64,000 nucleotides of DNA, taken from contig NZ_JAFFZS010000006.1 of NCBI RefSeq assembly GCF_016921115.1, forward strand, positions 62,001 through 126,000, written 5' to 3'. The first letter of the stretch is position 1. The number at the start of each line of letters is the position of its first letter. The notes under the pieces were generated by a model that had not been told where the DNA came from, did no database searches, and worked only from the letters and a program-made list of their open reading frames with translations. The translations under genes were made by a program, and so were the position numbers. Positions 1,139 to 49,902 of this stretch are shown here, in pieces. The stretch is from Streptomyces actuosus (GTDB lineage: Bacteria; Actinomycetota; Actinomycetes; Streptomycetales; Streptomycetaceae).

Positions 1139-1792
1139 TCAGGGGCCGGCCACCGGGTGGCCGGTCGGGCCCGCCGCCCCGGACGGGGTCACCGTCTCGC
1201 CCGCCCATGTCAGGGCCTTCCACCCGTCGGACGGGGAGCCCTCCAGGACGACCACGCCGGTGTTCCTCAACGGGTGCGTGGCGGCGAACGGGACGTCGAC
1301 GTTGTCGACACGGGCGGCGGTCCACATGCGGATCGCGGCGCCGTGACTGACGAGGGCGACCGTGCCCGCCTGGAGAGCCGCGGCCTCGGCGACCACGGCG
1401 TCGTAGCGGCGCAGCGCCTCGTCGCCGTTCTCTCCGCCCGGGATGCGCAGCGCGGTCCGCCCGGACGACCAGGCGAACACCGTCCTCATGTAGAGCTCCC
1501 CCCGCTCGGAGTCGCCGCGCAGCATCTCCAGGTCGCCCGCGGAGATCTCGCGGATGCCGTCGCGGACGGTGACCTCCAGGCCGCGGGCCACGGCCAGCGG
1601 GGCGGCGGTGAGCTGGGTGCGGACGAGCGTGGAGGCGAACACGGCGCCGATGTCCTCGTGGGCGAGGGCCGTGGGAAGGGCGGCGGCCTGCCGCTCGCCG
1701 AGGTCGGTCAGACCTGGTCCGGGGACGCCGGTGTCGAGGACGTACTCCAGGTTGGAGGGGGTCTCGCCGTGGCGGATGAGGAGCAGGCGCAT
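1139..1792 (-). CDS. Histidine phosphatase family protein (phosphoglycerate-mutase-like)
   Basis: A 217-residue protein of the histidine phosphatase superfamily. The phospho-acceptor signature LIRHGET is at residues 5-11 and the second catalytic histidine lies in ALVSHGAAIR near residue 170. A GGAGGA Shine-Dalgarno sits 7-8 bases before the ATG. The family hydrolyses phosphomonoesters through a phosphohistidine intermediate, and the substrate cannot be told from sequence. It is divergent from the PAP2-kinase fusion that starts 66 bp away, so the two promoters share the short gap. Confidence 0.88.
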   Translation of the reverse strand: MRLLLIRHGETPSNLEYVLDTGVPGPGLTDLGERQAAALPTALAHEDIGAVFASTLVRTQLTAAPLAVARGLEVTVRDGIREISAGDLEMLRGDSERGELYMRTVFAWSSGRTALRIPGGENGDEALRRYDAVVAEAAALQAGTVALVSHGAAIRMWTAARVDNVDVPFAATHPLRNTGVVVLEGSPSDGWKALTWAGETVTPSGAAGPTGHPVAGP

Positions 1793-1858
1793 GCAGGGTT
1801 CCTCCGGGCGGGCGATCCGCCGGTCGGGAAACGGCCACTTCAGGGTACCCGGGGCGGT

Positions 1859-3352: not shown

Positions 3353-3446
3353 CCCTGGAACCGCCGCTGGGTCGACCCCCCGGCGGCTCACATCGTGGAC
3401 CTTACGTCTCACCATGCGGCCACAACGCGTACGGTGTCGCCCATCG

Positions 3447-3472
3447 CCCCGCCGGGTCGAACCCCGGCGGGG
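3447..3472. other. Perfect 10-bp hairpin before methyltransferase gene
   Basis: The arms at 3447-3456 and 3463-3472 are perfect complements around a six-base TCGAAC loop. It lies 25 bp before the methyltransferase start with no T-tract after it. It could be a terminator for the upstream fusion gene or a 5'-leader structure. Confidence 0.5.
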
Positions 3473-3497
3473 GCCGGCGCGAGCAGAGGGGCACACC

Positions 3498-4319
3498 ATG
3501 ACGCAACCGCGGGAGACGGCCGTCTACACGCACGGGCACCACGAGTCCGTGCTCCGGTCGCACACCTGGCGCACCGCCGCCAACTCGGCGGCGTACCTGC
3601 TCGGCGTCCTCCGGCCCCGCACGCGGATCCTGGACATCGGCTGCGGTCCGGGCACGATCACCGCCGACCTGGCCGCGCTGGTCCCCGACGGGCAGGTCGT
3701 CGGGGTCGACCGGGCACCGCGGATCCTGGACCGGGCACGGGCCACGGCCGCCGCGCGCGGCGTACGGAACGTCGGCTTCGCGGTCGGCGACGCGCACGCC
3801 CTCGCGCACCCCGACGACGTGTTCGGGGTCGTCCACGCCCACCAGGTGCTGCAGCACGTGGGCGACCCGGTGCAGGTACTGCGGGAGATGAGGCGGGTGA
3901 CCGCGCCGGGCGGGTTCGTCGCGGCGCGCGACGCCGACTACGCGGCCATGACCTGGTATCCGCAGGTGCCCGGGCTGGACGACTGGCTGGCACTGTACCG
4001 GCGGGTGGCCCGTGCCGGCGGCGGCGAGCCGGACGCCGGGCGCCGTCTGAGGGCGTGGGCGCTCCGGGCGGGCTTCACCGACGTCACCGCCACCTCCGGC
4101 ACCTGGACGTACGCCTCACCCGAGGAGCGCCGCTGGTGGAGCGAACTGTGGGCGGATCGCACGGTGGCCTCCTCCTACGCCGGGCTGGCGGTCGACGGGG
4201 GGCACGCCACCGCGGCCGAGCTGCGCGCGGTGGCGGACGCCTGGCGGGAGTGGGGGCGACAGGAGGAGGGCTGGTTCGCCGTGCTCCACGGAGAGATTCT
4301 GTGCCGGAAGGATCCGTGA
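3498..4319 (+). CDS. Class I SAM-dependent methyltransferase
   Basis: A 273-residue Rossmann-fold methyltransferase. The AdoMet motif I is ILDIGCGPG near residue 38-46, followed by VGVDRAP (motif II acidic strand) and the post-I segment GDAHALAHPDDVF. HQVLQHVGDPVQVLREM is the usual motif of the UbiE/methyltransferase-11 type. AGAGGGG precedes the chosen ATG by about 7 bases. The acceptor substrate is unknown. It stands alone between the PAP2-kinase fusion and a tiny membrane protein gene. Confidence 0.88.
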   Translation: MTQPRETAVYTHGHHESVLRSHTWRTAANSAAYLLGVLRPRTRILDIGCGPGTITADLAALVPDGQVVGVDRAPRILDRARATAAARGVRNVGFAVGDAHALAHPDDVFGVVHAHQVLQHVGDPVQVLREMRRVTAPGGFVAARDADYAAMTWYPQVPGLDDWLALYRRVARAGGGEPDAGRRLRAWALRAGFTDVTATSGTWTYASPEERRWWSELWADRTVASSYAGLAVDGGHATAAELRAVADAWREWGRQEEGWFAVLHGEILCRKDP

Positions 4320-4392
4320 CGTTCCATCGGATCCGGTCCCCCTGTTTTCCGGGCCGTTTTCGGGACACACGGAATGACAGGAGGTTGACATC

Positions 4393-4563
4393 ATGGTTCC
4401 CATTCTGCTGGTACTACTGCTGGCGGCAATCCTGTTCGGTCTCGGCTTTGCGGTGAAAGTGCTCTGGTGGATCGCACTCATCGTTCTCGTCGTATGGCTG
4501 CTGGGATTCCTGATGCGTGGCACGTCCGCGAGCGGGGGCAGGGGCCGCTGGTACCGGTGGTGA
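4393..4563 (+). CDS. Small hydrophobic membrane protein (DUF5670-like)
   Basis: A 56-residue protein that is hydrophobic over residues 1-42, including FAVKVLWWIALIVLVVWLLG, with a short Gly/Arg tail ending in WYRW. It probably has two packed transmembrane segments. A strong AGGAGGT lies 6 bases before the ATG. Proteins of this size and pattern are common in Streptomyces and are annotated as DUF5670 or hydrophobic protein; the function is unknown. Confidence 0.75.
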   Translation: MVPILLVLLLAAILFGLGFAVKVLWWIALIVLVVWLLGFLMRGTSASGGRGRWYRW

Positions 4564-4630
4564 GGCGCCCGGGGCGGGGTGCGCGCCGGGCCACCTCCCC
4601 GGGGCGCACCGGCCGACCGGCCCAGGGGCG

Positions 4631-4701
4631 CCGCAGCAGGCCCCGGGTCGGCGCCGCATGACGCCGGGCCACCGGCGGCGCCGACCCGGGGCCTGCTGCG
4701 G
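4631..4701. terminator. Very long perfect hairpin, bidirectional terminator
   Basis: Two 27-base arms, 4631-4657 and 4675-4701, are exact reverse complements around a 17-base loop. The element sits between the ends of the convergent DUF5670-like and GvpL/F genes, the classic place for a shared terminator. There is no U-tract, as is usual in Streptomyces. Confidence 0.75.
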
Positions 4702-4758
4702 GGCACGCCTCCCCTCCCGGGACCGCCGCCGCACCACGCGCCCGGCGGGCGCCGGCGG

Positions 4759-5466
4759 TCACTCGTACTCGTCCTCCACGAAGGAATACGCAGCCCACGG
4801 ACCGGTGAGTTCCACCCGGATTCCCGGAGCCACGCCCTTGGCGCGGTCCACGGCTTCCACGAATTCCTCGCAACGGATTCGCGGGACGAGATAGGCGGCA
4901 TTGAGGACAGGGCGCCCGAATGTTTCCGACTCGTCGGACGGCGCAGCATTCTCCGGTGGGTTGATCCGGGAATCCTCCGCGTACCCGGAAAGTTCCGCGT
5001 GCAGCCGCCCGGCGAATTGTTCCGCCGCCTGCCGCTCGTTCTCCCCGGGGCCCGCGTCCTGTTCCACCCCGGTTTCGGCGTACACCTGCACACCCCATTC
5101 CACCCGCCCCTCCAGCCGGTCCAGGGTGCGGTTCAGGACGTCCTCCCGTTCCTCGATCATCGTGCGGACGCCGCTGTCGTCCCGGAAGACGGTGCCCGGC
5201 CGCAGGGGCAGCGGGGTCGTCACGACGGTGAGCGCGTCGACGACGCCCTGATGGGCGCGGGCGGTCGCGGTCAGCCAGTCGGGGTCCTCCAGGCGGGCCC
5301 GCAGCGGCTCCTCGGCGAAGTCGCTCGCCGGGACCTCGCTGAACACGGCGACGAGGCCGTGATGGACGAGCCGCCGGGGCGGGGCACCGGCCACCCCCGT
5401 CAGCTGTGTCTGCAGCGGCGCGCCGAAGGGCCGGCAGACGGCGTACACGTACCGCAGCCCGGTCAT
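4759..5466 (-). CDS. Gas vesicle protein GvpL/GvpF family
   Basis: A 235-residue GvpL/F family protein. The opening YVYAVCRP, the central AVFSEVPASDF, the VVTTPLPLRPGTVF segment and the C-terminal LTGPWAAYSFVEDE are all family hallmarks. GvpF and GvpL are minor gas-vesicle proteins with an alpha/beta fold that assist assembly of the GvpA shell. GGAGGA lies about 7 bases before the ATG at 5466. No gvpA, gvpO, gvpJ or gvpK is near, so this copy is isolated from a full gas-vesicle cluster and may have another role. Confidence 0.88.
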   Translation of the reverse strand: MTGLRYVYAVCRPFGAPLQTQLTGVAGAPPRRLVHHGLVAVFSEVPASDFAEEPLRARLEDPDWLTATARAHQGVVDALTVVTTPLPLRPGTVFRDDSGVRTMIEEREDVLNRTLDRLEGRVEWGVQVYAETGVEQDAGPGENERQAAEQFAGRLHAELSGYAEDSRINPPENAAPSDESETFGRPVLNAAYLVPRIRCEEFVEAVDRAKGVAPGIRVELTGPWAAYSFVEDEYE

Positions 5467-6092
5467 GGGTCTCCTCCCTGCGACGGACGGACGACGACGG
5501 CTCGTGGACCGCCGGCAGCCTCCGCCCGCTCCCGTCCGGGGCGGGTTCGCCGCGCCGGCAAGCCACGGGGGACGCTCCCGGATCGTCCTGCCACCAGTCG
5601 ACGCCCCTCTCCTCGGCCTTGTCCACAAAGGCGGCGACGGGCCGCCCGGGGTAGGCGACGGGAGGTGCTGGGACCGGGACGCGTCCGTGCCGCCCGTGCC
5701 GCCCTCGGCCTCCCTCTCGTCGCCGCGGACGGCGTCGCCGTCGCGAGGATCACGCCACCGGTCTCCGCCCGGCCTCCCCCTTCAGGGTGACAAGGCGAGC
5801 GGAATTCGTCAGGTCGAGCGGACTCGCCCGTCCCGGGCATGCCCGGGCACGGCACCACCGGCCGCACCCGGCACGGCTCGCACAGGGCTGCCGGACGCAC
5901 CGGATCCGGCTCACGCGGCACGAGGGAGCCCACGAAATCCGGCTCGTACCCCGGCGCCGGGCGCACGGGATCCGGCACCGCGGGGCGCCGACGCGGCGCG
6001 GTGCGGGTGTCCGTCCGGGGCGGGCACCGGGTCCGTGCGGTGGGTTCCGGTGCATCGGCGCCCGGCCGGCGGGGTGCGCGCGCCGGTCGCGT
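5467..6092. other. 626-bp stretch with no confident gene
   Basis: This gap lies between gvpL/F and the transketolase gene. Open frames here have arginine- and proline-rich translations typical of shadow frames. Between 5895 and 5990 a short imperfect unit around GGATCCGGC recurs two to three times. Nothing else is supported. Confidence 0.5.
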
Positions 6093-7940
6093 TCACGGCG
6101 CGATCGCCTCTTCGACCAGCAGCTTGCCGGCCGCGGCGATCGACTCCGCGTCGATACCGGCGGCGCGCAGTTGCTCGGCGGGGCTCGCCGAACCGGGCAT
6201 CGTGCGCACCGCGAGCCGGGCCGTGCGCGGCTGCGGGCGTCCGTCGCAGAACGCCTCGGCCACGGCGTCGCCGAGGCCGCCCTCGGGACGATGGTCCTCG
6301 ACGGTGAGCAGGCAGCCCGTCTCCTGCGCGGCCAGCCGCAGGGTGGGACGGTCGACGGGCTTGACCGAGTACAGGTCGATCACCCGGACCGGGATGCCGT
6401 CGCCGGCGAGCGCGTCGGCCGCGGCGAGCGCCTCCGGAACGGTGATCCCGGCGGCGACGACCGTCAGCCGGTCCCGGTCGGAGGAGCGCAGCACCTTGCT
6501 GCCGCCGACGGGGAACTCCTCGTCGGGGCCGTAGATCACCGGCGTCCCGCCGCGCAGGGTGCGCAGGTAGCGGATGCCGTCCAGGCCGGCCATGGCGGCC
6601 ACGAGCCGGGCGGTCTGGTTGGCGTCGCAGGGGTGCAGCACGGTCGAGCCGTGCACCGCCCGCATCATCGCCAGGTCCTCCAGGCCCATCTGGCTCGGTC
6701 CGTCCTGCCCGATGGAGACCCCGGCGTGCGAGCCGACCAGATTGAGGCTCGCGCCACTGACGGAGGCCATGCGCACGAAGTCGTGGGCACGGGTGAGGAA
6801 GGCCGCGAACGTGGCGGCGTACGGCACCCGGCCGCGTGCCGCCAGGCCGACCGCGGCGGCCACCATCTGCTGTTCGGCGATGTAGCACTCGAAGTAGCGG
6901 TCGGGATGCTCCTTGGCGAAGAACTCGGTGCGCGTGGAGTCGCCCACCTCCCCGTCCAGGGCCACGACGTCGTCGCGCGCGGTTCCGAGGGCGGCGAGCG
7001 CGCGGCCGTAGGCGTCCCGGGTGGGCACCTCGTCGCCCGGGTCCCAGCGGGGCAGCTCGACGGGGGCGGTGGACACGGAGTGCAGCGCCCGCGCGGCGGG
7101 CGGCTGGTGGACCTCGACCCGCAGCGCGCGCGGTCCGCCGAGTTCCCGGATCGCCTCGTCGGCGTCCGGCAACGGCTTGCCGTGCAGGCCCTCGCGGTCC
7201 TGGACGCCCTCGACCCCTTTGCCCTTGAGGGTGCGGGCGAGGATCACGGTCGGCTGCCCCCGGGTGGACAGCGCCTCGCCGTAGGCGCGGTCGATCGCAT
7301 CCACGTCGTGTCCGTCGATCTCGACGGTGTGCCAGCCGAAGGCCTGGAAGCGGCGGGCGTAGGCGTCGAGGTCGTGGCCGTGCCGGGTCGGACCGCGCTG
7401 GCCGAGCCGGTTGACGTCGACGACGGCGACGAGGTTGTCCAGATGCTCGTAGGCCGCGTGTTCGGCGGCCTCCCACACAGATCCCTCGGCGAGTTCGCTG
7501 TCACCGGTCAGCACCCACACCCGGTAGCCGGTGTGGTCCAGCCGCTTCCCGGACAGCGCGATGCCGACGCCGACCGGCAGCCCCTGCCCGAGGGAGCCGG
7601 TGGCCGTCTCCACCCACGGCAGCCGCTGCGGGGTGGGGTGCCCTTCCAGGCGGCTGCCGAGTTCGCGGAAGGTGAGGAGTGCGTCGTCGTCGAGGGCGCC
7701 GGCCGCCCTGTAGGCGGCGTACAGCAGCGGCGAGGCGTGCCCCTTGGACAGGACGAAGCGGTCGTTGCCGGGGTGGGCGGGGCGGTCGAAGTCGTAGCGG
7801 AGGTGGTGGGCGAGGAGGACGGCCATCAGGTCCGCCGCGGACATCGACGACGTCGGGTGCCCGGATCCCGCAGCGTCCGCGGCGCGCACGCTGTCCACCC
7901 GCAACTGCTGTCCCAGCTCCAGGAGTTCGCCGGTGTTCAT
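6093..7940 (-). CDS. Transketolase
   Basis: A 615-residue thiamine-diphosphate enzyme moving two-carbon units between ketose and aldose phosphates in the non-oxidative pentose phosphate pathway. Residues 26-33 (GSGHPTSS) and FVLSKGHASPLLY are transketolase N-domain signatures. The ThDP motif starts at GDSELAEG near 147 and ends at VVDVN. The pyrimidine-binding and C-terminal domains follow (ECYIAEQQMV, GPSQMGLED). It is shorter than the usual 660-700 residue enzyme. GGAAGGAG precedes the ATG at 7940. That ATG overlaps the stop of the upstream flavoprotein gene by 4 bp, so the two are co-transcribed and probably translationally coupled. Confidence 0.93.
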   Translation of the reverse strand: MNTGELLELGQQLRVDSVRAADAAGSGHPTSSMSAADLMAVLLAHHLRYDFDRPAHPGNDRFVLSKGHASPLLYAAYRAAGALDDDALLTFRELGSRLEGHPTPQRLPWVETATGSLGQGLPVGVGIALSGKRLDHTGYRVWVLTGDSELAEGSVWEAAEHAAYEHLDNLVAVVDVNRLGQRGPTRHGHDLDAYARRFQAFGWHTVEIDGHDVDAIDRAYGEALSTRGQPTVILARTLKGKGVEGVQDREGLHGKPLPDADEAIRELGGPRALRVEVHQPPAARALHSVSTAPVELPRWDPGDEVPTRDAYGRALAALGTARDDVVALDGEVGDSTRTEFFAKEHPDRYFECYIAEQQMVAAAVGLAARGRVPYAATFAAFLTRAHDFVRMASVSGASLNLVGSHAGVSIGQDGPSQMGLEDLAMMRAVHGSTVLHPCDANQTARLVAAMAGLDGIRYLRTLRGGTPVIYGPDEEFPVGGSKVLRSSDRDRLTVVAAGITVPEALAAADALAGDGIPVRVIDLYSVKPVDRPTLRLAAQETGCLLTVEDHRPEGGLGDAVAEAFCDGRPQPRTARLAVRTMPGSASPAEQLRAAGIDAESIAAAGKLLVEEAIAP

Positions 7941-9568
7941 CGGTCTCCTTCCCTGTGGTCGGGAGCATCGGTGCGCCGGACCGGTCCGGGAGCGGGATGC
8001 TCCTCGAAGAGCGTGTCGGGCGCGGGCTGGTTCCTGGCGGGCTCACCGCCGGGCTGGTTCTTCGCCGGCTCACCGCCCGGCTGGTTCTTCGCCGGCTCAC
8101 CGCCCGGCTGGTTCTTCGCCGGCTCACCGCCCGGTTGGTTCCGGGCCGGTTCCGCGGTCGTGTCCCGCTCGGTGGCCGCACCGGGCCCCGAGCCCGCGCC
8201 GGACGTCGTCCCCGCGGCGGATCCGGCTGCCGGGGCGCCGGGCGTGCCGGCCTGCCCGTCCGCCCGGCCCGGCACGCGCGCCAGTTCCGGCGACGCCGTG
8301 TCCAAAGGCACCGACCAGGACCGGACGAGCCCCAACTGGACGGCCTGGCGCGGCAGTACGGCGTCCAGCAGCCAGTCCGCGGCGACCCGGACGCGATTGC
8401 CGGGCATGGCCGCGAGATGGTAGCCGCGGGTGACCGCGCCGGCCACCGGACCGGCCAGCGGCACACCCAGCGGGTTGGCCGCGGCCTTGACGCCGCCGAG
8501 GTCGACGACGAAGCCCTTGTCCCGGTGCCGGTACGGGTGCAGCTCGCCGCCGTTCAGCGAGGCCGCGACATTGCGGCCGGCCGACCTGCCCTGGCGCCAG
8601 GCGTGCTGCGCGGTCGGCGGCGTGTACTCACCCGGGTTCTCCAGGTCGGGCACGGCCGCGGCGTCGCCGCACGCGAACACCTCCGGCCTGCCCGGGACAC
8701 GCAGCGTGGGCTCGACGAGGAGCCGACCGCGCTCCATCGGCAGCCCGAGGGAGTCCGCCAGCGGGTCGGGGCGCACGCCGACGCACCACACGAGGGTCCG
8801 GGTGTCGACGAACTCGCCGTCGGTGAGCAGGACACCGTCGTGCGTGGCCTCCTTCACCGACGTGCCCATGCGCACGTCGACACCCCGCTCGCGCAGTACC
8901 CGGTCGGCGGTGCGCGACATCCGCCCGTCCAGCTCCGGCAGGACCCGGTCGGCGATGTCCAGCAGCATCCAGCGCGGTCGCACGGCCTGACGCAGGGGGT
9001 GTCTGCGCACCAGCGCGTCGGTGAAGAGCTTGCCCTGTGCGGCGACCTCGGTGCCGGTGTATCCGGCGCCGACCACGACGAAGGTGCAGCGCGCCCGGCA
9101 GTCGGCCGGGTCCTCGGCGGCGGCTGCGAGTTCGACCTGCCGGGTGACATGGTCCCGCAGGTAGAGCGCCTCTGGCAGGCCGCGGAAGCCGTGCGCGTGC
9201 TCGGCGACGCCGGGAATGGGCAGCAGCTTGTTGACGCTGCCGGCGGCGAGCACCAGCCGGTCGTAGCCGAGACTGCCGGCCCCGCCCTCGGGGTCGGTGT
9301 AGTGCACCGTACGGGCGTCCAGGTCGATGCGGTCGGCCTCGCCGAGCGCCAGCCGCACGTGCGGCAGGGTGCCGGACAGGGACACGGTGACGCGGCGCGG
9401 TTCGAGGATGCCTGCGGCCACCTGGGGCAGCAGCGGCAGGTAGAGGAAGTAGTCGGTCGGGTTGAGCACGGTGATGTCGGCCCTGCCCCGGGCGAGCCCG
9501 GCCAGGGTGCGGGCCGTGCGGTATCCGGCGAAGCCGGCACCGACGATCACGATGCTGGGTCGACTCAC
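7937..9568 (-). CDS. NDH-2-like NAD(P)/FAD-dependent oxidoreductase with repeat tail
   Basis: A 543-residue flavoprotein. The FAD dinucleotide fold VIVGAGFAG is at residues 7-15, a second fold VVVGAGYTGTEVA near 165, and the late FAD motif VFACGDAAAVPD near 300. This is the architecture of type II NADH dehydrogenases and related quinone reductases. After about residue 440 the chain changes to low complexity. Five copies of PAxNQPGGE (residues about 470-515) are encoded by 27-bp repeats at 8026-8160. The start is GTG with GGAGGC before it. The 4-bp overlap with transketolase suggests one operon. The tail is unusual for the family. Confidence 0.87.
   Translation of the reverse strand: MSRPSIVIVGAGFAGYRTARTLAGLARGRADITVLNPTDYFLYLPLLPQVAAGILEPRRVTVSLSGTLPHVRLALGEADRIDLDARTVHYTDPEGGAGSLGYDRLVLAAGSVNKLLPIPGVAEHAHGFRGLPEALYLRDHVTRQVELAAAAEDPADCRARCTFVVVGAGYTGTEVAAQGKLFTDALVRRHPLRQAVRPRWMLLDIADRVLPELDGRMSRTADRVLRERGVDVRMGTSVKEATHDGVLLTDGEFVDTRTLVWCVGVRPDPLADSLGLPMERGRLLVEPTLRVPGRPEVFACGDAAAVPDLENPGEYTPPTAQHAWRQGRSAGRNVAASLNGGELHPYRHRDKGFVVDLGGVKAAANPLGVPLAGPVAGAVTRGYHLAAMPGNRVRVAADWLLDAVLPRQAVQLGLVRSWSVPLDTASPELARVPGRADGQAGTPGAPAAGSAAGTTSGAGSGPGAATERDTTAEPARNQPGGEPAKNQPGGEPAKNQPGGEPAKNQPGGEPARNQPAPDTLFEEHPAPGPVRRTDAPDHREGDR
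8026..8160. repeat. Five tandem 27-bp coding repeats
   Basis: Units begin at 8026, 8053, 8080, 8107 and 8134. The middle three are identical and the outer two diverge. Each encodes nine residues of the type PGGEPAKNQ in the flavoprotein tail. There are no spacers, so this is a coding tandem repeat, prone to slippage, and not a CRISPR array. Confidence 0.95.
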
Positions 9569-9883
9569 GGTTCGCCTCCGGCGTCATGGGTCTCGAAACG
9601 AGAGTGTCCGCGTTTCCCCCGCCCGGGGCGTCAAACGTGCCCCGGCTCGACGAGGTCCGGCCAAAGGGCGTGCGCGCCCGTCCCCCGGGCACTTGGCGGG
9701 CGGCCTCACCCCTCGTCGCGGGGTCACCCCCTGCGCGAGCACCACCGCGAGGTGCTCCTGCCCGCCGCGCCGCGGTTCCGCCGCGGTCGCGGCGGCCTTG
9801 ACGGTCCGGGCGCGGGGCGCCCGTGTGCGGACGGATCCCGTGAAGCGATCACTCGCCACGACGGGTCCCACTAGGCTCGCGGC

Positions 9884-10249
9884 ATGGAGATCCTGGGTGC
9901 CACCCTCCGCGTCTGCGTCGCCGACCTCGAGGCCGCGATCCCCTTCTACGAGCGTCTGGCGGGCGGCAGAGCCCTCCGTTTCGGGCGCGGCGGTGTGCAG
10001 GTGGCCGCGGTCGGCTGTTTTCTGCTGATGAGCGGTCCCGAGGCGGAGTTGGAGTTGTTGCGGAAGGTGGCGGCCACGATCGCCGTGACCGATGTCGACG
10101 AGGCCCACGCGGTGCTCACCGCGAGCGGAGCGGACGTCATCGCCGGCCCGTTGCCGACTCCGGCGGGCCGCACCCTGATCGCCCGGCATCCGGACGGCAC
10201 GGTCTACGAGTACGCCGATCGCCGCGGGGCTCCCGCGGAAACCGCGTAG
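9884..10249 (+). CDS. VOC (glyoxalase/bleomycin resistance) family protein
   Basis: A 121-residue protein with the beta-alpha-beta-beta-beta pattern of the vicinal oxygen chelate fold. It opens MEILGATLRVCVADLEAAIPFYERL and ends with the usual HPDGTVYEYADR. The family includes metal-dependent lyases and antibiotic-binding proteins; no substrate is suggested here. No Shine-Dalgarno is seen, but TAGGCT about 12 bases before the ATG would fit a leaderless transcript. Confidence 0.83.
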   Translation: MEILGATLRVCVADLEAAIPFYERLAGGRALRFGRGGVQVAAVGCFLLMSGPEAELELLRKVAATIAVTDVDEAHAVLTASGADVIAGPLPTPAGRTLIARHPDGTVYEYADRRGAPAETA

Positions 10250-10741
10250 GCCCGCCCCGGCCGAGGCCCAGGCCGTCCTTCCGCGCCCGGGACGAGCACC
10301 GCCCCGGTTTCCCGCCCCTCGCTCCCCGCCCCTCGCTCCCCGGCCCGAGCGGCACGTGGTGCGACGCAACCCGGTGTCGCGTCCGGAGGAGGTCACCGGA
10401 TTCCGCACGGCGCCCTCGGCCTGCGGTTGCGGGCGACCTCGGGCATGCGGGCGCCGAGGCGGGGATCACCTCCGCCCCGAGGGCACGGCGGGGGCCGTGC
10501 GTACCGCTCCGGCCGCCCGGAACCGCAGCCCGGACCCGACTCGGCCGCCTGCTGGGCGGTCGGCCCGATGCCGGCGTCCTGCGTGCCGAGCTCACGCCCG
10601 CGCGGGACCGACCGGCCGGGGCCGCTGCGGACCGGCAGGCCGGCAGGCCGGCAGGGGCGCGACGGTAATCCGTGTGCGCCCCGGCGGCACCGACCGTAGA
10701 GTCGGGCCCCTGCCGACCCGAACGAAGGAGCGCACCAGCCG
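10250..10741. other. 492-bp non-coding stretch with short tandem repeats
   Basis: No gene is supported. A 15-bp unit CCCGCCCCTCGCTCC occurs twice in tandem around 10311-10341, and a GGCAGGCC unit repeats about three times near 10631-10655. The last 60 bp carry TAGAGT, a possible -10, and AAGGAG for the next gene. Confidence 0.45.
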
Positions 10742-42312: not shown

Positions 42313-43398
42313 ATGACGTCTCTCATGACACCGGTGGAGACGAGGCCGGGGCTCGCCGACCGCGTCCTCGGCGGCTGGCTGGGCCGGATCGCGGGCAACA
42401 TGCTCGGCAAGCCGGTCGAGCAGGGCGAGGTGTGGACCCGTGAGCGGATCGACCACTACCTGCGGCAGGCCGGCGCCCTGCCGCTCGACGACTACCTCCC
42501 GGAGCCCCCGGGCGGCGACGGGCTTCCGCCGCTGCGTCCGGAGTGGCGCCAGTGCGTACGCGGACGCATCCACGGCAGCTGCCGCGACGACGACGTCGAC
42601 TACGCGATCCTCGGCCTGGACCTGCTGGAGACGCACGGCTTCCGCTTCACCACCGAGCAGGTCGGCGACCTGTGGCTGCTGCGGCTGCCGTACCGGCAGA
42701 CGTTCACCGCGGAGCGCGCGGCCTACCGCAACCTCGCCAACGGGCTCAGGCCGCCGCTGACCGCGACGTACGACAACCCGTACCAGGACTGGATCGGCGC
42801 CCTGATCCGCGCCGACATCTACGGCTGGACCTGCCCCGGCGACCCGCGCCGCGCCGCAGCCCTGGCCCGACGGGACGCGGTCCTGTCGCACACCGGCAAC
42901 GGGGTGTACGGCGCGATGTTCGCAGCCGCCCTGATCTCGGCCGCGTTCACCGCCCCCGGCGTCCGCGGCGCACTCGACGAGGCGCTCGCCGTCATCCCGG
43001 CGGGCAGCCGCCTGGCGCGTACGGTCCGTCGGGTCGTATCCCTCCACGATTCCCGGATGACCTGGGAGGACACGCTCACCACCCTCGCCGAGGAGACCGC
43101 CGGGCTGGGCTGGATCCACACGGTCCCGAACGCCGCGGTCCTCACGGCGGGCCTGCTGTACGGCGACGGCGACTTCACCCGCACCGTCGCGCTCACCGTC
43201 CGCGGCGGGCTGGACACCGACTCCAACGGCGCGACGGCCGGGTCGGTGGCCGGCGTGCTGACCGGCGCGGCGGCGATCCCCCCGCAGTGGACGGAGCCGC
43301 TGGAGGACACGGTCCGCAGCGCGGTGTTCGGCTTCGACGGGGTCCGCATCAGCGAACTGGCCGAGCGCACACTGCGCCTGGCGGAGTCGGCCCCCTGA
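42313..43398 (+). CDS. ADP-ribosylglycohydrolase family protein
   Basis: A 361-residue DraG/ARH-type hydrolase. It opens VLGGWLGRIAGNMLGKPVEQ. The metal-binding acidic clusters are SCRDDDVDYAIL near residue 95 and GGLDTDSNGATAGSVAG near 300, with HTGNGVYGAMFAAA between them. It should remove ADP-ribose from proteins or small molecules, using Mg2+. No Shine-Dalgarno is present. TAGACC 12 bp upstream suggests a leaderless message; an in-frame ATG at 42325 is an alternative. Confidence 0.9.
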   Translation: MTSLMTPVETRPGLADRVLGGWLGRIAGNMLGKPVEQGEVWTRERIDHYLRQAGALPLDDYLPEPPGGDGLPPLRPEWRQCVRGRIHGSCRDDDVDYAILGLDLLETHGFRFTTEQVGDLWLLRLPYRQTFTAERAAYRNLANGLRPPLTATYDNPYQDWIGALIRADIYGWTCPGDPRRAAALARRDAVLSHTGNGVYGAMFAAALISAAFTAPGVRGALDEALAVIPAGSRLARTVRRVVSLHDSRMTWEDTLTTLAEETAGLGWIHTVPNAAVLTAGLLYGDGDFTRTVALTVRGGLDTDSNGATAGSVAGVLTGAAAIPPQWTEPLEDTVRSAVFGFDGVRISELAERTLRLAESAP

Positions 43399-43706
43399 CC
43401 GACGGTCGGCAGGAGAAGACCGCCGCGTGAGTGCGCCTCCGTGGGCGCAGGCGGATTCCTTCCGCACGCGGACCGAGCGGGACGGCTCGGCTACCCGCTC
43501 GTCCGCACAGGAGACGTGATACTTGAATGCCCGCGTCACGCGGGTGGCCACGATTCACACACTGTTTCGCCGGTTCGTGACTTCCTGGCGGGCCGACGAG
43601 AGGGGACGGCGCATTGCCCCGGCGGCGATGCGCCTTTCCCCGAGCCGCTCCCCAGGCGTCCTGTTCCTCCCCCGTCCGAAGGCGGGGGCTTCCTCGGAGG
43701 TTCCCG
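43399..43706. repeat. Possible IS605-type MITE remnant in a 308-bp gap
   Basis: Two hairpins bracket this stretch. CCCGCG-TCA-CGCGGG is at 43530-43544. At 43669-43688, CCCCCG pairs with CGGGGG inside the wider TTCCTCCCCCG...CGGGGGCTTCC pattern that resembles subterminal hairpins of IS200/IS605 elements. No transposase remains. The right hairpin sits just before the NUDIX ribosome site GGAGG (43696-43700) and could mask it. The assignment is by resemblance only. Confidence 0.35.
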
Positions 43707-44198
43707 ATGACCACTGCCGACTTCGCCGCCTACATCGCCTCGCTCCCCCGCGTGCTGGCCGGGGCCGCGGCCCTGTTCCGGGACGCAGAGGGCCGGGTGC
43801 TGCTCGTCGAGCCCAACTACCGGGAGGGCTGGGCACTGCCGGGCGGCACGATCGAGTCCGACGACGGCGAGACCCCACGGGAAGGGGCGCGCCGGGAGAC
43901 GCTGGAGGAGATCGGCCTGGACCGGCCGCTGGGCCGCCTGCTCGCGGTGGACTGGGTGCGCGGCCCGGGCCGGCCGCCCCTGGTGGCCTACCTGTACGAC
44001 GGCGGCGTCCTGGCCGAGGACGAGCTGAAGTCGATCCGCCTGCAGGAGGAGGAGCTGCTGTCCTGGCGGCTGGTGATGCCAGAGGACCTCACCGCCCACC
44101 TGCAGGGCTCGCTGGGCCGCCGGGTGCTGGCCGCGCTCGACGTCCTGACGGACGGCACCACCACCGCGGAGCTGGAGAACGGCCACCGCGTCGCCTGA
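43707..44198 (+). CDS. NUDIX hydrolase
   Basis: A 163-residue NUDIX protein. The Nudix box is seen as GGTIESDDGETPREGARRET followed by LEEIG (GX5EX7REUXEEXGU form), about residues 46-70. It hydrolyses a nucleoside diphosphate linked to another group, possibly ADP-ribose given the neighbouring ADP-ribosylglycohydrolase and sirtuin genes, though that link is inferred. GGAGG stands 6 bases before the ATG. Confidence 0.9.
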   Translation: MTTADFAAYIASLPRVLAGAAALFRDAEGRVLLVEPNYREGWALPGGTIESDDGETPREGARRETLEEIGLDRPLGRLLAVDWVRGPGRPPLVAYLYDGGVLAEDELKSIRLQEEELLSWRLVMPEDLTAHLQGSLGRRVLAALDVLTDGTTTAELENGHRVA

Positions 44199-44330
44199 CC
44201 CGGGCCGAGCGGTGCCACGCGGCCGCCGCCCGTGCCCTCCGCCCCTCGGCGAACCACCCTCGGTGCCGGTACGAACAGCCGGGACATATCCACTCGCTTG
44301 TGGGCGGGGCCGCGTCCTACCCTCGGCAGC

Positions 44331-44381
44331 ATGACCGAACCCCTCGTCGCCATCCTCAGCGGCGCCGGTGTCTCCACCGAC
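44331..44381 (+). pseudogene. Sirtuin gene, 5' fragment (17 codons)
   Basis: An ATG opens EPLVAILSGAGVSTD, the first half of the sirtuin NAD-binding motif GAGxSxxSGIPDYR. The frame then leaves sirtuin sequence (RGIPSKRPAPCTST) and stops near 44505. The missing remainder begins at 46981. Joined, the two parts give an uninterrupted sirtuin of about 243 residues, the usual size. Residues RGIP after the break still echo SGIP, so the exact joint is uncertain by about 12 bp. TACCCT 12 bp upstream would make the message leaderless. Confidence 0.85.
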
Positions 44382-44731
44382 AGGGGTATTCCGTCAAAGC
44401 GTCCTGCGCCTTGCACGAGCACCAGGAACTACGAGGCAGCTGGGGCCGACGTTCGTGCCTGGGCGTGGGCGGGGTCCAAGTCTTGGGAGAGCCTTCGGCA
44501 CGCATAGGTGCCGGTGGCCACATCACAACTGACGGACCGGGACGCACTGTGCGGCGGCCTGTACGCGCGGCCTGAGCCCGCGACACGTCTCTCTCCCTCC
44601 CCCGTTGCACCCGCCTGAGTTGAGCGGTCTGTCACACAGGTCCGCAACCGGAGTGGCGAGGTTTCGGTACGCCCCTCCCCAGTGACATGATCGATTGACT
44701 GTTCGAGGCAACGAGCTGAAGGGGGAACAGG

Positions 44732-45181
44732 TTGTCATTCGAGGAGGAGTGGGCCCAATTGAAGGCCGACGCCTTGGCGCGTCGGCAGACCGGCATGCAG
44801 ATCGACCAGCTGCCGGCAGACGGGGGCTCGGGGTCAGGCACCCCAGCCTCCGGGTCCCTGGTGGCCAAGGCCGAGTCGATCAATGGCAACGCGAATCTGC
44901 TGATCGAGATCGCGGGCTTCCTTCACGAGGGGCGGCCTGACGCCGAACTGACCACCATGGCCCGCGAACCCCGGACGCCTGAGGAGGTGGCCGAACAGGT
45001 GGCACGGTTCGCTGGATTCGCCGATGACCAGTACCTCGACGCAGTTGCCCTGTTCGCGGCGCTGTCCACCCGCCTGAGGACGACCGGCAGCGACTTCGTG
45101 AAGATCGACGACGACACAGCTCAGCGCTTCCTCGACGACGTCCTTCGCTACGGCCAGTACGTCGCCCCGGAGGCACGATGA
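44732..45181 (+). CDS. Small WXG-like protein of a Streptomyces secretion-associated family
   Basis: A 149-residue soluble helical protein opening SFEEEWAQLKADALARRQT, then a Gly/Ser linker (residues about 30-45) and two amphipathic helical regions. The opening resembles a family of Streptomyces proteins encoded as the first of a pair with a longer WXG-like protein and tentatively linked to type VII-like secretion. The start is TTG with AAGGGGG 7-8 bases before it. Its stop overlaps the next ATG by 4 bp. A role as chaperone or partner of the next protein is inferred. Confidence 0.6.
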   Translation: MSFEEEWAQLKADALARRQTGMQIDQLPADGGSGSGTPASGSLVAKAESINGNANLLIEIAGFLHEGRPDAELTTMAREPRTPEEVAEQVARFAGFADDQYLDAVALFAALSTRLRTTGSDFVKIDDDTAQRFLDDVLRYGQYVAPEAR

Positions 45182-46566
45182 GCATCGGCATCAGCCACCG
45201 CAAGGACGTCGAGTTCCTGGAAAGCTGCAACCCGCCCCTCGTCGAACGGAACGCGGACGAGTACAAGCGCCTGCACGACCTGCTCGTGGCGGTCGCCCCC
45301 TCCGCCGAGCGGGCCGAGAAGCACACGCAGTGGAAGAGTGAGGGCAGTCAGCACTACGAGGCCCGACTCGCCGAGGGGCGCAGACTCATCGCGCAACTGG
45401 CCGAGGGCTACGACAAAGCCGCCAGCGCCCTGCGCAGCTACGCCTGCGCGCTGGAGGTGGCCAAGGCCCACTACTCCAACGGCAAGGCGAACGAGCAGGC
45501 CCTCGCGACACTGATCCACACCAAGGGCACGGCGATCACCCGCGAAGCCCAGGAAGCGGAGCCGATGCGCCAGTGGGAGGACATGCGGGCCACCACCGGT
45601 GTCATGGACTTCTTGGCCGAACTCACCATGGACGTCGACGACATCCGCGATGATGCGAACCGGCTGCACGACGCCGCCGGCGGGGACTTCCACCTGGCGA
45701 AGACCACTGAGCACGAGGCACGGGAGATCTGCGTCCACGAACTCAAGCAGGCCTACGACCTGCTGCCGGACTTTCGCATGGGTTTCATCCAACGCGTCGA
45801 CATCGTCTCCGCGGTCTCGGAGCTGCGGCGGGAAGCGGCCGAGGCGAGCACCAACCCGCTGACGCGGCTGCCCGGCAGCGGCCCCAAGCAGGACTACTAC
45901 CCCATCGCCGGGAACGAGATCGTCTCTCCGACACTGCGCGACATCCGCCTCCAGGTCGCCAGCCTCCCCGGAGCGAAGGACAGTTACTGGAGCCCGCCCT
46001 CCAACGCCCAGGAGCGCGCTGAGTGGATCGCCGCGAACAAGGAGATCATCAAGGCAGCGGCACGGAACTCTGGGCTGCCGCCGGACATGGTCGCCGGCAT
46101 CGCCTGGCAGGAGATCGGTGGCCAGCCCGGCATCCTCGACGACATCACCGACACCATCCGCGAACAGGCGGACTCTCCGTTGAGCCCGATCGCCCCCGAG
46201 AGCCTGCCTTGGCGTCTCGGCGGCGACCCCGACAACACATCCATGGGGCCCATAGCCATCCAAGTGCGACGCGGCGCCGAGGTCCTCGGCTACGACCCCG
46301 ACAACCTCACCGACCAACAGCGCGGCATGGTGGAGGAGGCCCTCCAAGACCCCGGGCAGAACATCTTCATCGCCTCGGAGTACCTGGCCCAGCTCAAGGC
46401 GGAGAGCGAGTTCGCCGACGTACCGCCGGAGGGGATGACAGCGGCCCAATACCAGGAGCTCGCCGCGCGTTACAACGGTGGCCCGTACTGGCAGACCGAT
46501 GACGCCCAGGCCTACGGGCGTGGCTTCACTAACAACCTGGACGAGGCAAGGAACGCACTGCGCTGA
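45178..46566 (+). CDS. WXG-like protein with C-terminal lysozyme/transglycosylase-fold domain
   Basis: A 462-residue protein with no signal peptide. Residues 1-230 are helical and charged (ESCNPPLVERNADEYKRLHD, YDKAASALRSYACALEVAK), like the N-terminal halves of WXG/LXG-type effectors. Residues about 285-462 look like an SLT/lysozyme fold. VAGIAWQEIGG places the likely catalytic Glu at about 312, SMGPIAIQVRRG is a core helix and ARYNGGPYW (about 431) matches the AxYNxGP motif of transglycosylases. It may cut peptidoglycan, either as a secreted effector or as a wall-remodelling factor. It is coupled to both neighbours by overlaps. Confidence 0.65.
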   Translation: MSIGISHRKDVEFLESCNPPLVERNADEYKRLHDLLVAVAPSAERAEKHTQWKSEGSQHYEARLAEGRRLIAQLAEGYDKAASALRSYACALEVAKAHYSNGKANEQALATLIHTKGTAITREAQEAEPMRQWEDMRATTGVMDFLAELTMDVDDIRDDANRLHDAAGGDFHLAKTTEHEAREICVHELKQAYDLLPDFRMGFIQRVDIVSAVSELRREAAEASTNPLTRLPGSGPKQDYYPIAGNEIVSPTLRDIRLQVASLPGAKDSYWSPPSNAQERAEWIAANKEIIKAAARNSGLPPDMVAGIAWQEIGGQPGILDDITDTIREQADSPLSPIAPESLPWRLGGDPDNTSMGPIAIQVRRGAEVLGYDPDNLTDQQRGMVEEALQDPGQNIFIASEYLAQLKAESEFADVPPEGMTAAQYQELAARYNGGPYWQTDDAQAYGRGFTNNLDEARNALR

Positions 46567-46877
46567 TGACCCGCCCTTCCCACCCGGACAACGATCGCGG
46601 CGGCCTTCGCCTGGTCCTCGCCGTACCACTGAGCCTGCTCACCCTCATCGCCGTGTACTTCTGCTGGACCGCCCTGACCATCCGTCCGTCAGGCTCCTGG
46701 GACCACGACGCATACGCCGGCATCGTCCTGTCTTGCGTGCTGACGATCGGGGCTGCCGGTGCGGCGACGGGTTTGTGGCTGCTGCCGTCGGTGCGGCGGG
46801 TCATGGGGTGGGGGTGGGTGGTTCCTGCCGTGGTGCTCGGGGTTGTGGCGGGCGTGCGATGGGGCTTGGGCGGCTAG
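46566..46877 (+). CDS. Three-TM membrane protein, possible immunity/partner
   Basis: A 103-residue protein with three predicted membrane helices (about 14-36, 52-73 and 79-98; for example VLAVPLSLLTLIAVYF and WVVPAVVLGVVAGVRW). It matches no family I recognise. Its start overlaps the preceding stop by one base (TGATG), so it is made together with the lysozyme-fold protein. A membrane protein in this position could be an immunity factor or an anchor; neither is shown. Confidence 0.65.
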   Translation: MTRPSHPDNDRGGLRLVLAVPLSLLTLIAVYFCWTALTIRPSGSWDHDAYAGIVLSCVLTIGAAGAATGLWLLPSVRRVMGWGWVVPAVVLGVVAGVRWGLGG

Positions 46878-46926
46878 GGACCACTACCGCCCCGTTCAGC
46901 GCGTCACGTGATGGCCATCGCCTCCT

Positions 46927-47661
46927 ATGAACGCTCCGCGCCGGAACGACGACATGTTACGTCTGCCAATGCCTTGCGACTCCGGGATCCCTGACTATCG
47001 CGGTCCCAACGGGCTGTGGCGTCGGGATCCCGAGGCGGTGAAGCTCGTCACCTACGAGTACTACATGGCGGATCCGGAGATCCGGCGGCGTTCCTGGCAG
47101 ATGCGGCGGGGGAACCGCACGCTCAAGGCCGAGCCGAACGCGGCGCACCGGGCCGTGGCCGAGCTGGAGCGGACCGGGGGGCCGGTGCGGGTGATCACGC
47201 AGAACGTGGACGGGCTGCACCAGCTCGCCGGGATGCCTGCCCGCAAGGTGCTCGAACTGCACGGCAGCGCCCGGAGCGTGGTGTGTACGAGGTGTCATGA
47301 GCGCGGATCCATGGAGGACGCGCTCGCACGGGTCGAGGCCGGGGAGCCCGATCCGCCGTGCCTGGAGTGCGGCGGGATCCTGAAGTCGGCGACGGTGATG
47401 TTCGGCGAGCGGCTCGACCCGGTGGTGCTGGGCGAGGCCGTCGCGATCAGCAAGGCCTGCCAGGTGTTCTTCGCCGTCGGCAGCAGCCTCCAGGTCCAGC
47501 CGGCCGCGGGGCTGGCCGGGGTCGCCGCCGATCACGGGGCTCGGCTCGTCGTCGTCAACGCCGAGCCGACACCGTACGACGAGCTCGCGGACGAGGTCGT
47601 ACGGGAGCCGATCGGCACCGTACTCCCGAAGCTGCTGAGCGACCTGGATGGTCGGCGCTGA
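46927..47661 (+). pseudogene. Sirtuin (NAD-dependent deacylase), 3' portion of split gene
   Basis: Sirtuin sequence resumes at 46981 with SGIPDYRGPNGLWRRDPEA and continues in frame to the end. It includes the catalytic ITQNVDGLHQLAG and ELHGSA (His), the zinc pairs CTRCHE and CLECGG, and FAVGSSLQVQPAAGL. The first 18 codons from the ATG at 46927 belong to the inserted cassette and replace GAGVSTD of the NAD site. A protein could still be made but lacks half of the Rossmann signature, so deacylase activity is doubtful. Confidence 0.85.
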
Positions 47662-47796: not shown

Positions 47797-49902
47797 TCAC
47801 GCGGAGCGCCGCCGCCGTTTGGCGAGCAGAAGCACCGAACCGGCGATCATGAGCGTCCCGCCGACCACGGCGGGCCACAGGGTCGTGCCGGTCTCGGCCA
47901 GATCACCCGCGACCGTCTGCGTTTCGGTCTGCGGCTCCGTGGAGGAAGAACCGCCACCGGGGGGCGACGCGACCGACGACGCCTCGGGCTCGGCCGTCCC
48001 GGTGACCTGGCTGTCGTCCGAGCCGTTCTGGGATGCCTCTGCGGGCTCGTCCTCCTGTCCGCCCGACGAGGGGGCCTTGTCCTGCTGCTCGCCCGACGAA
48101 GGCGCCTTGTCCTGCTGCTCGCCCGACGAAGGCGCCATGTCCTGCTGCTCACCCGACGAAGGCGCCTTGTCCTGCTGGTAGGCCGGGGAGGACGCCTTGT
48201 CCGCCCTGGGGGCCGCGCTCGGGGCGGTGGTCGAGTCGCCGCGCGACGGTTCGGTTGCCCGCGTGCCGGCCGATGCCTGCGGCGGGTTCATGCCCCCGGA
48301 GGTGTCGTGGTTCATGCCGTCCTGGCCGCCCCCGGATGCGGTACCCGCGTCAACGGTCGCCTTCGGTTCAACGGTCGCCGCCGGCTTGTCCTGTGGCTGT
48401 TCATCGACTCCGGTGCCGCACTGCCGGCCGTTGTTGATGCAGTCGACCACCTTGTTCATCAGATCGCCGTCCATGACGCTGATGAAGTCGTCGTGGTCGG
48501 TGATCGCCTTGTGCAGCTCGGCCTGGAACCCGTCGACGGCGAACGGATTCTTCACCTGACCGTTCTCGATGGTCGGCGTCGGAACGTCGTACACCAGCCG
48601 CATCGTCAGCTGCGGAATCGCCTCGAAGCCGTTCTGGCAGTTGCCCTCGGCGTCGGCGAAGGCGACGTGCGAGCGGTGGTTGGCGCTGTCGATGTTCCGG
48701 CCGTCCCAGCAGCTCTGGAAGGCGAACGAGCGGACCACGCCGCTGCCCTGGGGACACAGCGGATACTTGTCCGTCAGCTGCACCTTGTCCTCGAAGCCGG
48801 TGCAGCTCCAGTGCGCGTTGGCATTCGCCGTGCCGTTGCTGAACGCCTTGGCGTCACCGGTGATGATGCGCAGGAACTTCGGCATCGCGACGACCTTGCT
48901 CGTCGGGCTGCCGACATACTTGATCTCGGCCGTCTTCGCCTTGAGGATCCTGCCCGCGTTGCCCTCCGCCCCGCCGCCGAGCTTGTTGTCGTCGAACTCC
49001 TTGTTGCCGTCCTGCAGTCGCAGAACCGGCCAGTAGTAGGCCGACTTGTCGTCCTGTTCGGAGCAGCTGGTGGTGGCGGCGGCCAGGTCCTGGTCCTTGG
49101 AGAAGGCGTTGACGTCCTGGTTGCCCACATAGTCGTGCGTGTGGTGGGCGCCGTTGTTCACACCGGGCGCCACGATCAGGTTGTCGGTGTTGAAGTTGTT
49201 GTTCTCGTTGACACCGCAGGAGACGCTGAACGTGCCGATCGAGGCACTGCCGTTGGGCTGCGGCGCCGGCTGGACGTTGGGCCGGACCTTGGTGATGTCG
49301 ACGAAGTCGTCCGCCACCGGACCGTTGCCGGCCTGCCCGCCGATGTTCTGCTGCCCGCCGTTGTTGTTCTGCCCCTGCTCACCACCCGGCTGCTGGTCGC
49401 CGTTGTTCTGGCCGGCATCGGCCCGCACCTGATCGGCGGCCACTGCAGTGCAGTTCGCGAGTTCCTTCAGCGAGTCGTCGAAGGTGCCGCCGACGCGCTC
49501 GATGTCCATCCTGATCCTGTCGATCACCGCGGACCGCTTGTCCTTCAGCGGACCGAGGATCGCGTTCTGCACGAACGACGTGTCACCTGCCTGTGCCTGG
49601 CGCGTGGACGCCAGCCTCGCGTAGGCCTCGTTGACCTGCTTGTCGAGGTTCGCCAGCTCCATGTCGACGCCGGCCCGTGCCTTGTGCGGCACGTCCGCCA
49701 ACTGCTGGCCGACGTCCGGACACTTGATTGTCGCTATCTGGGCCGCAGCGGCCTTCGTCCGGTTCTGCCCGGAGTCGTTCGTCTCGTGCGCCGAAGCATA
49801 GAAGTTCGCCGCTACGAGCCCCCCTCCGCCCATGATCAGCGCGACCGATGCGAAGGTGGCGCGCCGTGCGCCGGTAGGTCGTCTGCGTGCGTTGCGTCTC
49901 AC
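47797..49902 (-). CDS. DUF1996 protein with LAETG sortase signal
   Basis: A 701-residue surface protein. It has an N-terminal signal segment ([20 protein letters not shown]), a helical region to about 130 and an Asn/Gln-rich linker. The DUF1996 domain (about 190-510) contains [21 protein letters not shown] and NHRSHVAF. Then comes a Ser/Pro/Gln-rich stalk with four ten-residue repeats ([10 protein letters not shown]). It ends LAETG, a hydrophobic stretch and KRRRRSA. LAxTG is the signal of class E sortases, so it is probably linked covalently to the cell wall. The start is GTG with GGAG 8 bases before it. Confidence 0.88.
48061..48180. repeat. Four tandem 30-bp coding repeats
   Basis: Units begin at 48061, 48091, 48121 and 48151 and encode [10 protein letters not shown], with one DM variant, in the stalk of the DUF1996 protein. 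High identity implies recent expansion by slippage. Confidence 0.95.

Follow-up and report, generated by a model that had tools for sequence, protein, structure and literature searches.

What is the role of three overlapping genes that lie inside a broken housekeeping gene of Streptomyces actuosus? The window, that is, the whole stretch of 64,000 nucleotides that was analyzed (contig NZ_JAFFZS010000006.1, positions 62,001 to 126,000, from a genome of 8.4 Mb), holds on its + strand gene A (44732..45181, 149 amino acids (aa), TTG start), gene B (45178..46566, 462 aa) and gene C (46566..46877, 103 aa). The open reading frames (ORFs) were found where the original prediction, made from the letters alone, had placed them, with A and B overlapping by 4 bp (ATGA) and B and C by 1 bp (TGATG). 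In this study, we propose that A-B-C probably functions like a mobile cassette of effector and immunity genes for the actinobacterial type VII secretion system (T7SS, ESX), composed of a small EspC/WXG100-like partner, a putative T7SS effector that would cut peptidoglycan, and a predicted immunity protein with three transmembrane (TM) segments.

The first step is whether the three genes belong together. Relatives of B were collected by a scan of the contigs of GTDB species (107 relatives, with the 80 best loci retained) and by tblastn with B in a genus sample of 199 genomes, own genome included; loci of the two sets are partly the same place (L009 is L113, for example). Alignment of B left 65 loci, with 15 of the 80 omitted (six broken or truncated, nine with an uncertain start). 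By profile, A was found in 77 of the 80 loci and C in 73. Among the 65 aligned loci, A stood directly upstream of B in every one (in two frames in L063, partial in L077), C followed a full-length B in 59 by profile, and in L106 an unmatched ORF with three hydrophobic segments occupied the position of C. Of the aligned loci that have a full-length B, 60/65 kept the order A-B-C; nearly all are Streptomyces. The co-occurrence on which the original prediction hinged was confirmed across loci and is beyond chance.

The C-terminal half of B (residues 262-462, 45961..46563, + strand) points to an enzyme acting on the cell wall. It carries the motifs AWQEIGG at residues 309-315 and ARYNGGP at 430-436, and E312 (the predicted catalytic acid, codon 46111..46113), T354-S355-x-G357-P358, Q362 and Y432-N433-G434-G435 (third motif, 46471..46482) were each invariant in 66/66 aligned B proteins. 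We take the catalytic Glu, G-x-x-x-Q and YN-x-G to be the motifs of the lytic transglycosylase family. In one-by-one Pfam scans, SLT was matched in 61/66 B relatives at E values up to 0.1, with a best E value of 2.2e-5, and phrog_11932, of function not known, matched B 281-435 (E value 5e-14). An AlphaFold2 model of B was built from the 66-row alignment (mean predicted local distance difference test (pLDDT) 77, predicted template modeling score 0.46). With the aligner VIA, residues 262-462 of this model matched Tse3 (4m5e; Z 10.7, root-mean-square deviation (rmsd) 4.1, 172 residues aligned), MltC (4cfo_A, Z 10.6) and MltE (3t36_D, Z 10.5); across Tse3, MltC, MltE, MltF and Slt, Z ranged from 9.2 to 10.7, values that are moderate and come from the whole 462-residue model, not from the isolated domain. 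The fold was credited because the matches to several lytic transglycosylases concur and none of the expected motifs varies, and a lytic-transglycosylase-like fold for B 262-462 is supported by the model. The muramidase-type fold foreseen for B was found in this form, including the Glu near position 312. The part of the claim that named a goose or phage lysozyme fold did not stand: goose lysozyme was rejected as the nearest fold, since the listed aligner rows were lytic transglycosylases and Tse3.

The N-terminal half of B (residues 1-201, 45178..45780, + strand) is predicted to be the export half. At E values up to 0.1, Pfam matched T7SS_signal in 23/66 B relatives (best 9e-7), EspA_EspE in six and WXG100 in four (best 8e-5). 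VIA aligned this half with PPE15 (5xfs_B; Z 11.1, rmsd 3.4, 166 residues aligned) and with other PPE proteins, in a range, below about 13, in which Z may carry little meaning for helical bundles; BAR-domain proteins scored nearly equally, so the support for PPE is moderate, and the fold match is consistent with the family evidence. Foldseek alone put BAR domains at the top for B, and it was VIA, as second aligner, that revealed both halves. No N-terminal hydrophobic stretch was seen in B by eye, in agreement with the earlier statement that it has no signal peptide. The two-part architecture that had been described, a WXG/LXG-like half followed by a transglycosylase half, held for the fold and motifs of the second part and for a T7SS_signal/PPE type of the first. 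LXG membership gained no support, as no LXG family appeared among the 22 Pfam families listed for the 66 relatives at E values up to 0.1. A class-level search with the N half gave weak matches in 11 other genomes; swapping of this half between proteins was considered and set aside as too weak, the ten loci examined being of WXG or RHS type or unclear by eye.

Gene A is probably the T7SS targeting partner of B, as judged from its relatives and their neighbors. Among 75 relatives of A, Pfam EspC (PF10824) was matched in 22, PE in three and WXG100 in two, which bears out the likeness to small partners of type VII substrates at the level of the family. The stronger line of evidence appears to be the occurrence of an A motif in T7SS loci: distant relatives in the genus share an N-terminal motif of approximately [SA][FW]xxEWxxLKxxA...MRLN. 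Fifteen T7SS regions were chosen from A-like matches (L146 and L147 adjoin each other in a single genome, and L156 is a decayed cassette). In 12/15 of these regions, the gene immediately after that of the A-like protein encodes a protein of 655-801 aa whose start is WXG-like (a label given by eye, as are "hemB-like" and "recombinase-like" below). EccC was present in nine and an Esx-like gene in ten, counts that are biased upward because the regions were chosen partly for proximity to EccB. In the own genome, one locus (L145) combines EccB and EccC with Esx-like genes, an A-like protein and a WXG-type substrate of 767 aa. EccB itself was present in each of the 19 genomes of the genus that have a full or near-full B and in 179/199 overall (chance 0.12), and its co-occurrence is uninformative because so many genomes of the genus carry it; the sole B-bearing genome without EccB (G196) has just a B fragment.

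Gene C behaves like an immunity gene. Three hydrophobic segments were found in 66 of 70 first-copy C proteins, the C of the window among them, and the charges (N terminus and loop 2 positive, loop 1 negative) give a pattern with the N terminus inside and loop 1 outside. C is the fastest-changing part of the cassette, with a median identity over 1,653 pairs of 0.28; the corresponding values are 0.49 for A and, within B, 0.44 for the N half and 0.59 for the C half. Tandem copies of C were found in five of the 80 loci (L056, L060, L062, L104 and L113) and also in L008; multiplied immunity genes are on record for EsaG, TsaI and TipC (PMC9484751; here and below, statements from cited papers hold for the parts of their text that were available).

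The loci in which B is broken or truncated (n = 17; 11 from the genus tblastn and six from the GTDB species scan, with L019, which a contig end cuts, and a second fragmented copy in G134 omitted) tell the same story. C was intact in 15 of them and absent from L027 and L114. A was intact in three (L070, L104 and the G025 copy split by an insertion); L020-L030 were examined with 1.5 kb flanks, and among the matches listed by the search for A in those genomes, an intact second A occurred only in G025. C without intact A occurred in 12 of these loci and A without C in none (sign test, 2e-4). Both ends of B are detectable by the fragment search, so this retention of C and not A has no obvious search bias, and the loci are not wholly independent. 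Eleven orphan C genes had no internal stop and a ratio of nonsynonymous to synonymous substitution rates of 0.16-0.35 relative to the nearest intact relative, a value that includes some change older than the loss of B. The tandem copies and the survival of C after loss of B are marks of an immunity gene, and the description of the third gene as a small membrane protein in the position of an immunity gene was upheld. In the split G025 copy (L174, G025:C1:3718300-3731500, reverse complement 1308-10620), an insertion of about 9.3 kb interrupts B near residue 99, with A and C on either side; its first ORF (395 aa) is recombinase-like.

Considering the features above, we propose a plausible model. 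A, as an EspC-like protein, would pair with the T7SS_signal/PPE-like half of B and direct B to the exporter. The transglycosylase-fold domain would then cleave peptidoglycan glycan strands, either those of a rival bacterium or nascent ones at the membrane. C would reside in the membrane of the producer, with a short conserved loop outside, and would neutralize B there.

Several points weigh against this proposal, besides the low range of the PPE scores. Taken alone, the A and C of the window matched no family convincingly. The A had no EspC match, and a PF10824 search of its own genome was empty, gene A included; the model of A is helical and poor (pLDDT 57.8). The B of the window had no T7SS_signal match in Pfam, and it scored 18.2 bits against SLT (PF01464), under the cut-off of 21.3 bits, so we describe it as having a transglycosylase-like fold and do not file it as SLT. 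A PDB sequence search with the catalytic half gave a best E value of 0.45, with Slt35/MltB-type chains at 1.4, and a search with the whole B profile gave designed or unrelated helical proteins. Finally, five loci of one clade (L083, L084, L091, L096 and L111) have A and B with intact catalytic residues and no adjacent C. Since an intact A-B pair stands without C in 5/65 loci, our claim stays at a cassette that works like an effector-immunity pair and stops short of membership of that class.

The C-less clade also speaks for the chief alternative, in which B is a hydrolase that opens the peptidoglycan of the producer itself for the T7SS, and C is an anchor or regulator. A dedicated wall hydrolase of this kind, EssH, serves the T7SSb of Staphylococcus aureus (PMC13059805), and the five loci share one chromosomal site near a hemB-like gene; this clade is possibly a domesticated version. 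A housekeeping role of this kind fits poorly with the distribution of B. In the genus sample, B was matched in 29/199 genomes, 19 with full or near-full copies and the rest with fragments, against the 179/199 with EccB. Clustering by translated similarity divided the upstream flanks (n = 77) into 44 clusters and the downstream flanks (n = 79) into 48, and the cassette therefore occupies many sites. Two Streptomyces plasmids have three ORFs arranged alike, the third of which was matched by tblastn in one. The survival of C without A after B is broken also tells against a hydrolase of the producer's own wall. This patchy, many-site distribution and the persistence of C weaken the alternative, and we regard it as unlikely.

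Among the best 80 loci of the 107 relatives, 75 were titled Streptomyces and three were from Goodfellowiella, Streptoalloteichus and Saccharopolyspora; the closest named relative of B in this set was from Streptomyces sp. 1-11 (97%). In a phylum-wide sample of 296 genomes, the catalytic domain was found in two, the own genome and one fragment of the same genus. On one cassette-bearing Streptomyces plasmid, a few kb from the cassette, a polymorphic toxin type 28 and a CDI-type immunity protein are annotated (L031, 14125-14922).

A second alternative keeps B as a type VII effector and moves its target: B would act on a lipid-linked precursor or on nascent strands at the membrane, not on mature peptidoglycan, and C would give protection by occupying the surface of the membrane. 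C is membrane-embedded with a short outside loop, unlike Tsi3, which is periplasmic, and three-helix small proteins also come after the related enzymes of enterobacteria described below. A target at the membrane surface (lipid-linked or nascent peptidoglycan) is one answer to how a small membrane protein might block a wall enzyme, and TelC, a T7SS effector, is a lipid II phosphatase (PMC6193138). The fold and motifs of B match the lytic transglycosylases that act on glycan strands, and we consider this second alternative to be improbable. It is very improbable that the cassette consists of decayed or passenger genes without an antagonistic role, such as phage-derived lysis genes: the catalytic domain matches phrog_11932 and broken copies are numerous, but neither B nor its Cronobacter relative had a match in 50,697 phage records, viral contigs gave no confirmed relative (a phage origin was rejected on these grounds), the active-site residues are invariant in all 66 proteins, and there is a T7SS-type partner gene together with a T7SS signal at the family level.

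The effector-immunity reading can be set beside known systems. The AaEAS module of Amycolatopsis azurea consists of a targeting factor, an effector with a T7SS N-terminal domain and a small putative immunity ORF (PMC12691689), and its gene order is like that of A-B-C; its toxin is an alarmone synthetase, whereas the cassette would combine a lytic-transglycosylase-fold domain with a three-TM partner. The TelC/TipC pair of Streptococcus (T7SSb) is alike in that a T7SS effector acts on the wall pathway and its immunity gene is frequently present in several copies (PMC6193138, PMC9484751), and differs in the effector: TelC, from Bacillota, has an LXG domain and is a lipid II phosphatase, in contrast to the T7SS_signal/PPE-like and transglycosylase-fold halves predicted for B. 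EssH is likewise a T7SS-linked cell-wall hydrolase (PMC13059805); it is a CHAP-domain enzyme required for secretion, whereas B is patchy, mobile and paired with C.

Among mycobacterial ESX substrates of PE/PPE and EspC type, a small helical partner also lies directly upstream of a PPE-like protein, PPE15 ranked first among the matches of the N half of B, and EspC and PE are families matched among the relatives of A; the cassette differs by adding a C-terminal enzyme and an immunity-like gene. Tse3-Tsi3 of the type VI secretion system (T6SS) of Pseudomonas aeruginosa provided the best structural match of the C half and is, by its entry title, a muramidase effector with its immunity protein; the secretion system is another, and C is a three-TM protein. 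The toxin catalog of Zhang et al. (2012) includes a lysozyme-like-fold domain, Tox-Glucosaminidase, and other wall-acting toxins (PMC3482391). In that catalog Tox-Glucosaminidase is assigned to T6SS and PVC delivery, and the word "transglycosylase" is absent from the available main text (PMC3482391).

Relatives of the catalytic half also occur far from Streptomyces. In a plasmid search with B, Rahnella, Serratia and Cronobacter were found to have the catalytic domain by itself. When the Cronobacter protein served as query, 13 plasmid records matched, ten of them enterobacterial. In 10/10 of these enterobacterial records, the next annotated gene encodes a small protein (98-113 aa) in which the measure applied to C gives three hydrophobic segments, a recurrence that also speaks for C as an immunity gene. 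It is annotated as DUF2645 in Serratia (three), Rahnella (three) and Escherichia coli (one) and is unassigned in Cronobacter (three). An Hcp gene lies directly upstream of the enzyme in six of the ten, and in one Serratia record it is found past DUF2645 on the other strand; none is annotated within the stretch examined of the three Cronobacter records. Pfam confirmed DUF2645 and Hcp at the two loci tested. In a single comparison, the E. coli enzyme shared 27% identity with the domain of the window over 153 residues (E value 3e-14), and Glu, Gln and the YNxG motif were all conserved in a seven-row alignment with the enterobacterial relatives. The domain is also found within large proteins, since a B-like catalytic domain forms the end of a 1,491 aa protein on a Nostoc plasmid (L034, 1101-5576).

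These Enterobacterales loci are like the cassette in having a homologous catalytic domain followed by a small three-segment gene, which often stands alone in E. coli; they differ in their T6SS Hcp context and in having neither the T7SS N half nor gene A. No homology was detected between C and the DUF2645 set (hhalign probability 0.3%), a further point that counts against our proposal, and the likeness is for that reason confined to position, size and helix number. Homology of C to DUF2645 gained no support from this result, and DUF2645 was absent among the 25 families listed, of 45 Pfam families, for 50 C proteins.

Among complete E. coli genomes (n = 5,426), the enzyme gene (at least 80% covered) was present in 1,253 and ygiZ, the DUF2645 gene, in 4,549; the entire Hcp-enzyme-ygiZ stretch was found in 1,253/5,426 (L181, 2492-4023; L184 and L185). 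Between mdaB and qseC, a derivative of K-12 MG1655 carries only ygiZ; at this place Nissle 1917 carries Hcp and the enzyme as well as ygiZ. By analogy with the orphan C genes, ygiZ looks like a mostly orphan immunity gene. More broadly, and tentatively, one wall-active domain could serve two unrelated secretion machines in two phyla, type VII in Streptomyces (with an EspC-like partner and a PPE-like carrier half) and type VI through Hcp in Enterobacterales, in each case with a three-helix membrane immunity protein; ygiZ would then be an orphan immunity gene in about 72% of its carriers, and the membrane location of the immunity protein would suggest that the attack falls on lipid-linked or nascent peptidoglycan at the membrane surface. 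We hold this wider reading to be quite possible, with somewhat more doubt than trust. One listed copy of the E. coli enzyme gene contains an IS1 element.

Antibacterial type VII effectors are known chiefly from Bacillota. If our proposal is true, an actinobacterial transglycosylase-type effector with its own partner and immunity gene would offer a well-defined case in which to test competition through ESX in Streptomyces. A function open to testing is also suggested by the shared catalytic domain, both for ygiZ of E. coli K-12 and for the Hcp-adjacent gene found in 1,253 of the 5,426 genomes. The Pfam family of ygiZ is labelled as of unknown function. In the open-licence literature searched, neither the cassette nor the Hcp-adjacent E. 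coli enzyme was described, DUF2645 was not mentioned, and among the 11 papers that contain ygiZ no title concerned type VI secretion.

The site in the window is consistent with movement of the cassette. The stretch between the two parts of a SIR2-family deacetylase gene spans 44382..46976 and has CGAC at both borders, as defined by comparison with the intact SIR2 genes of L036, L041 and L042. The 5' remnant lies at 44331..44381 on the + strand (blastn against the intact SIR2 of L036, 44310-44381). The remaining 3' part lies at 46927..47661 on the same strand, with homology from 46977 (blastn 46977-47637; Pfam SIR2 E value 1e-38 from profile position 7), and this downstream ORF is without the SGAGxS segment. 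Among the copies compared, the cassette splits SIR2 only in the window and in L035, with CGAC at both borders; SIR2 is intact upstream of the cassette in L036, L041 and L042, L040 retains just a 3' remnant, and L021 has the order SIR2, B fragment, C, SIR2 fragment. The location inside a broken housekeeping gene, which had been read as support for horizontal spread, was thus found for SIR2 here and in L035, whereas elsewhere SIR2 is intact or a remnant. No transposase, integrase or recombinase was recognized by eye among the ORFs listed for 44382..46976, nor were inverted ends seen at the insertion by eye, and the CGAC at both borders is a suggestive trace of movement only.

The interrupted SIR2 gene is one member of a group at 42313-47661 that also includes an ADP-ribosylglycohydrolase and a Nudix protein, a neighborhood of the NAD/ADP-ribose type. 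Beyond it, on the − strand (47797-49902), a 701 aa protein ends in LAETG, a hydrophobic stretch and basic residues, and by eye resembles a sortase-anchored wall protein.

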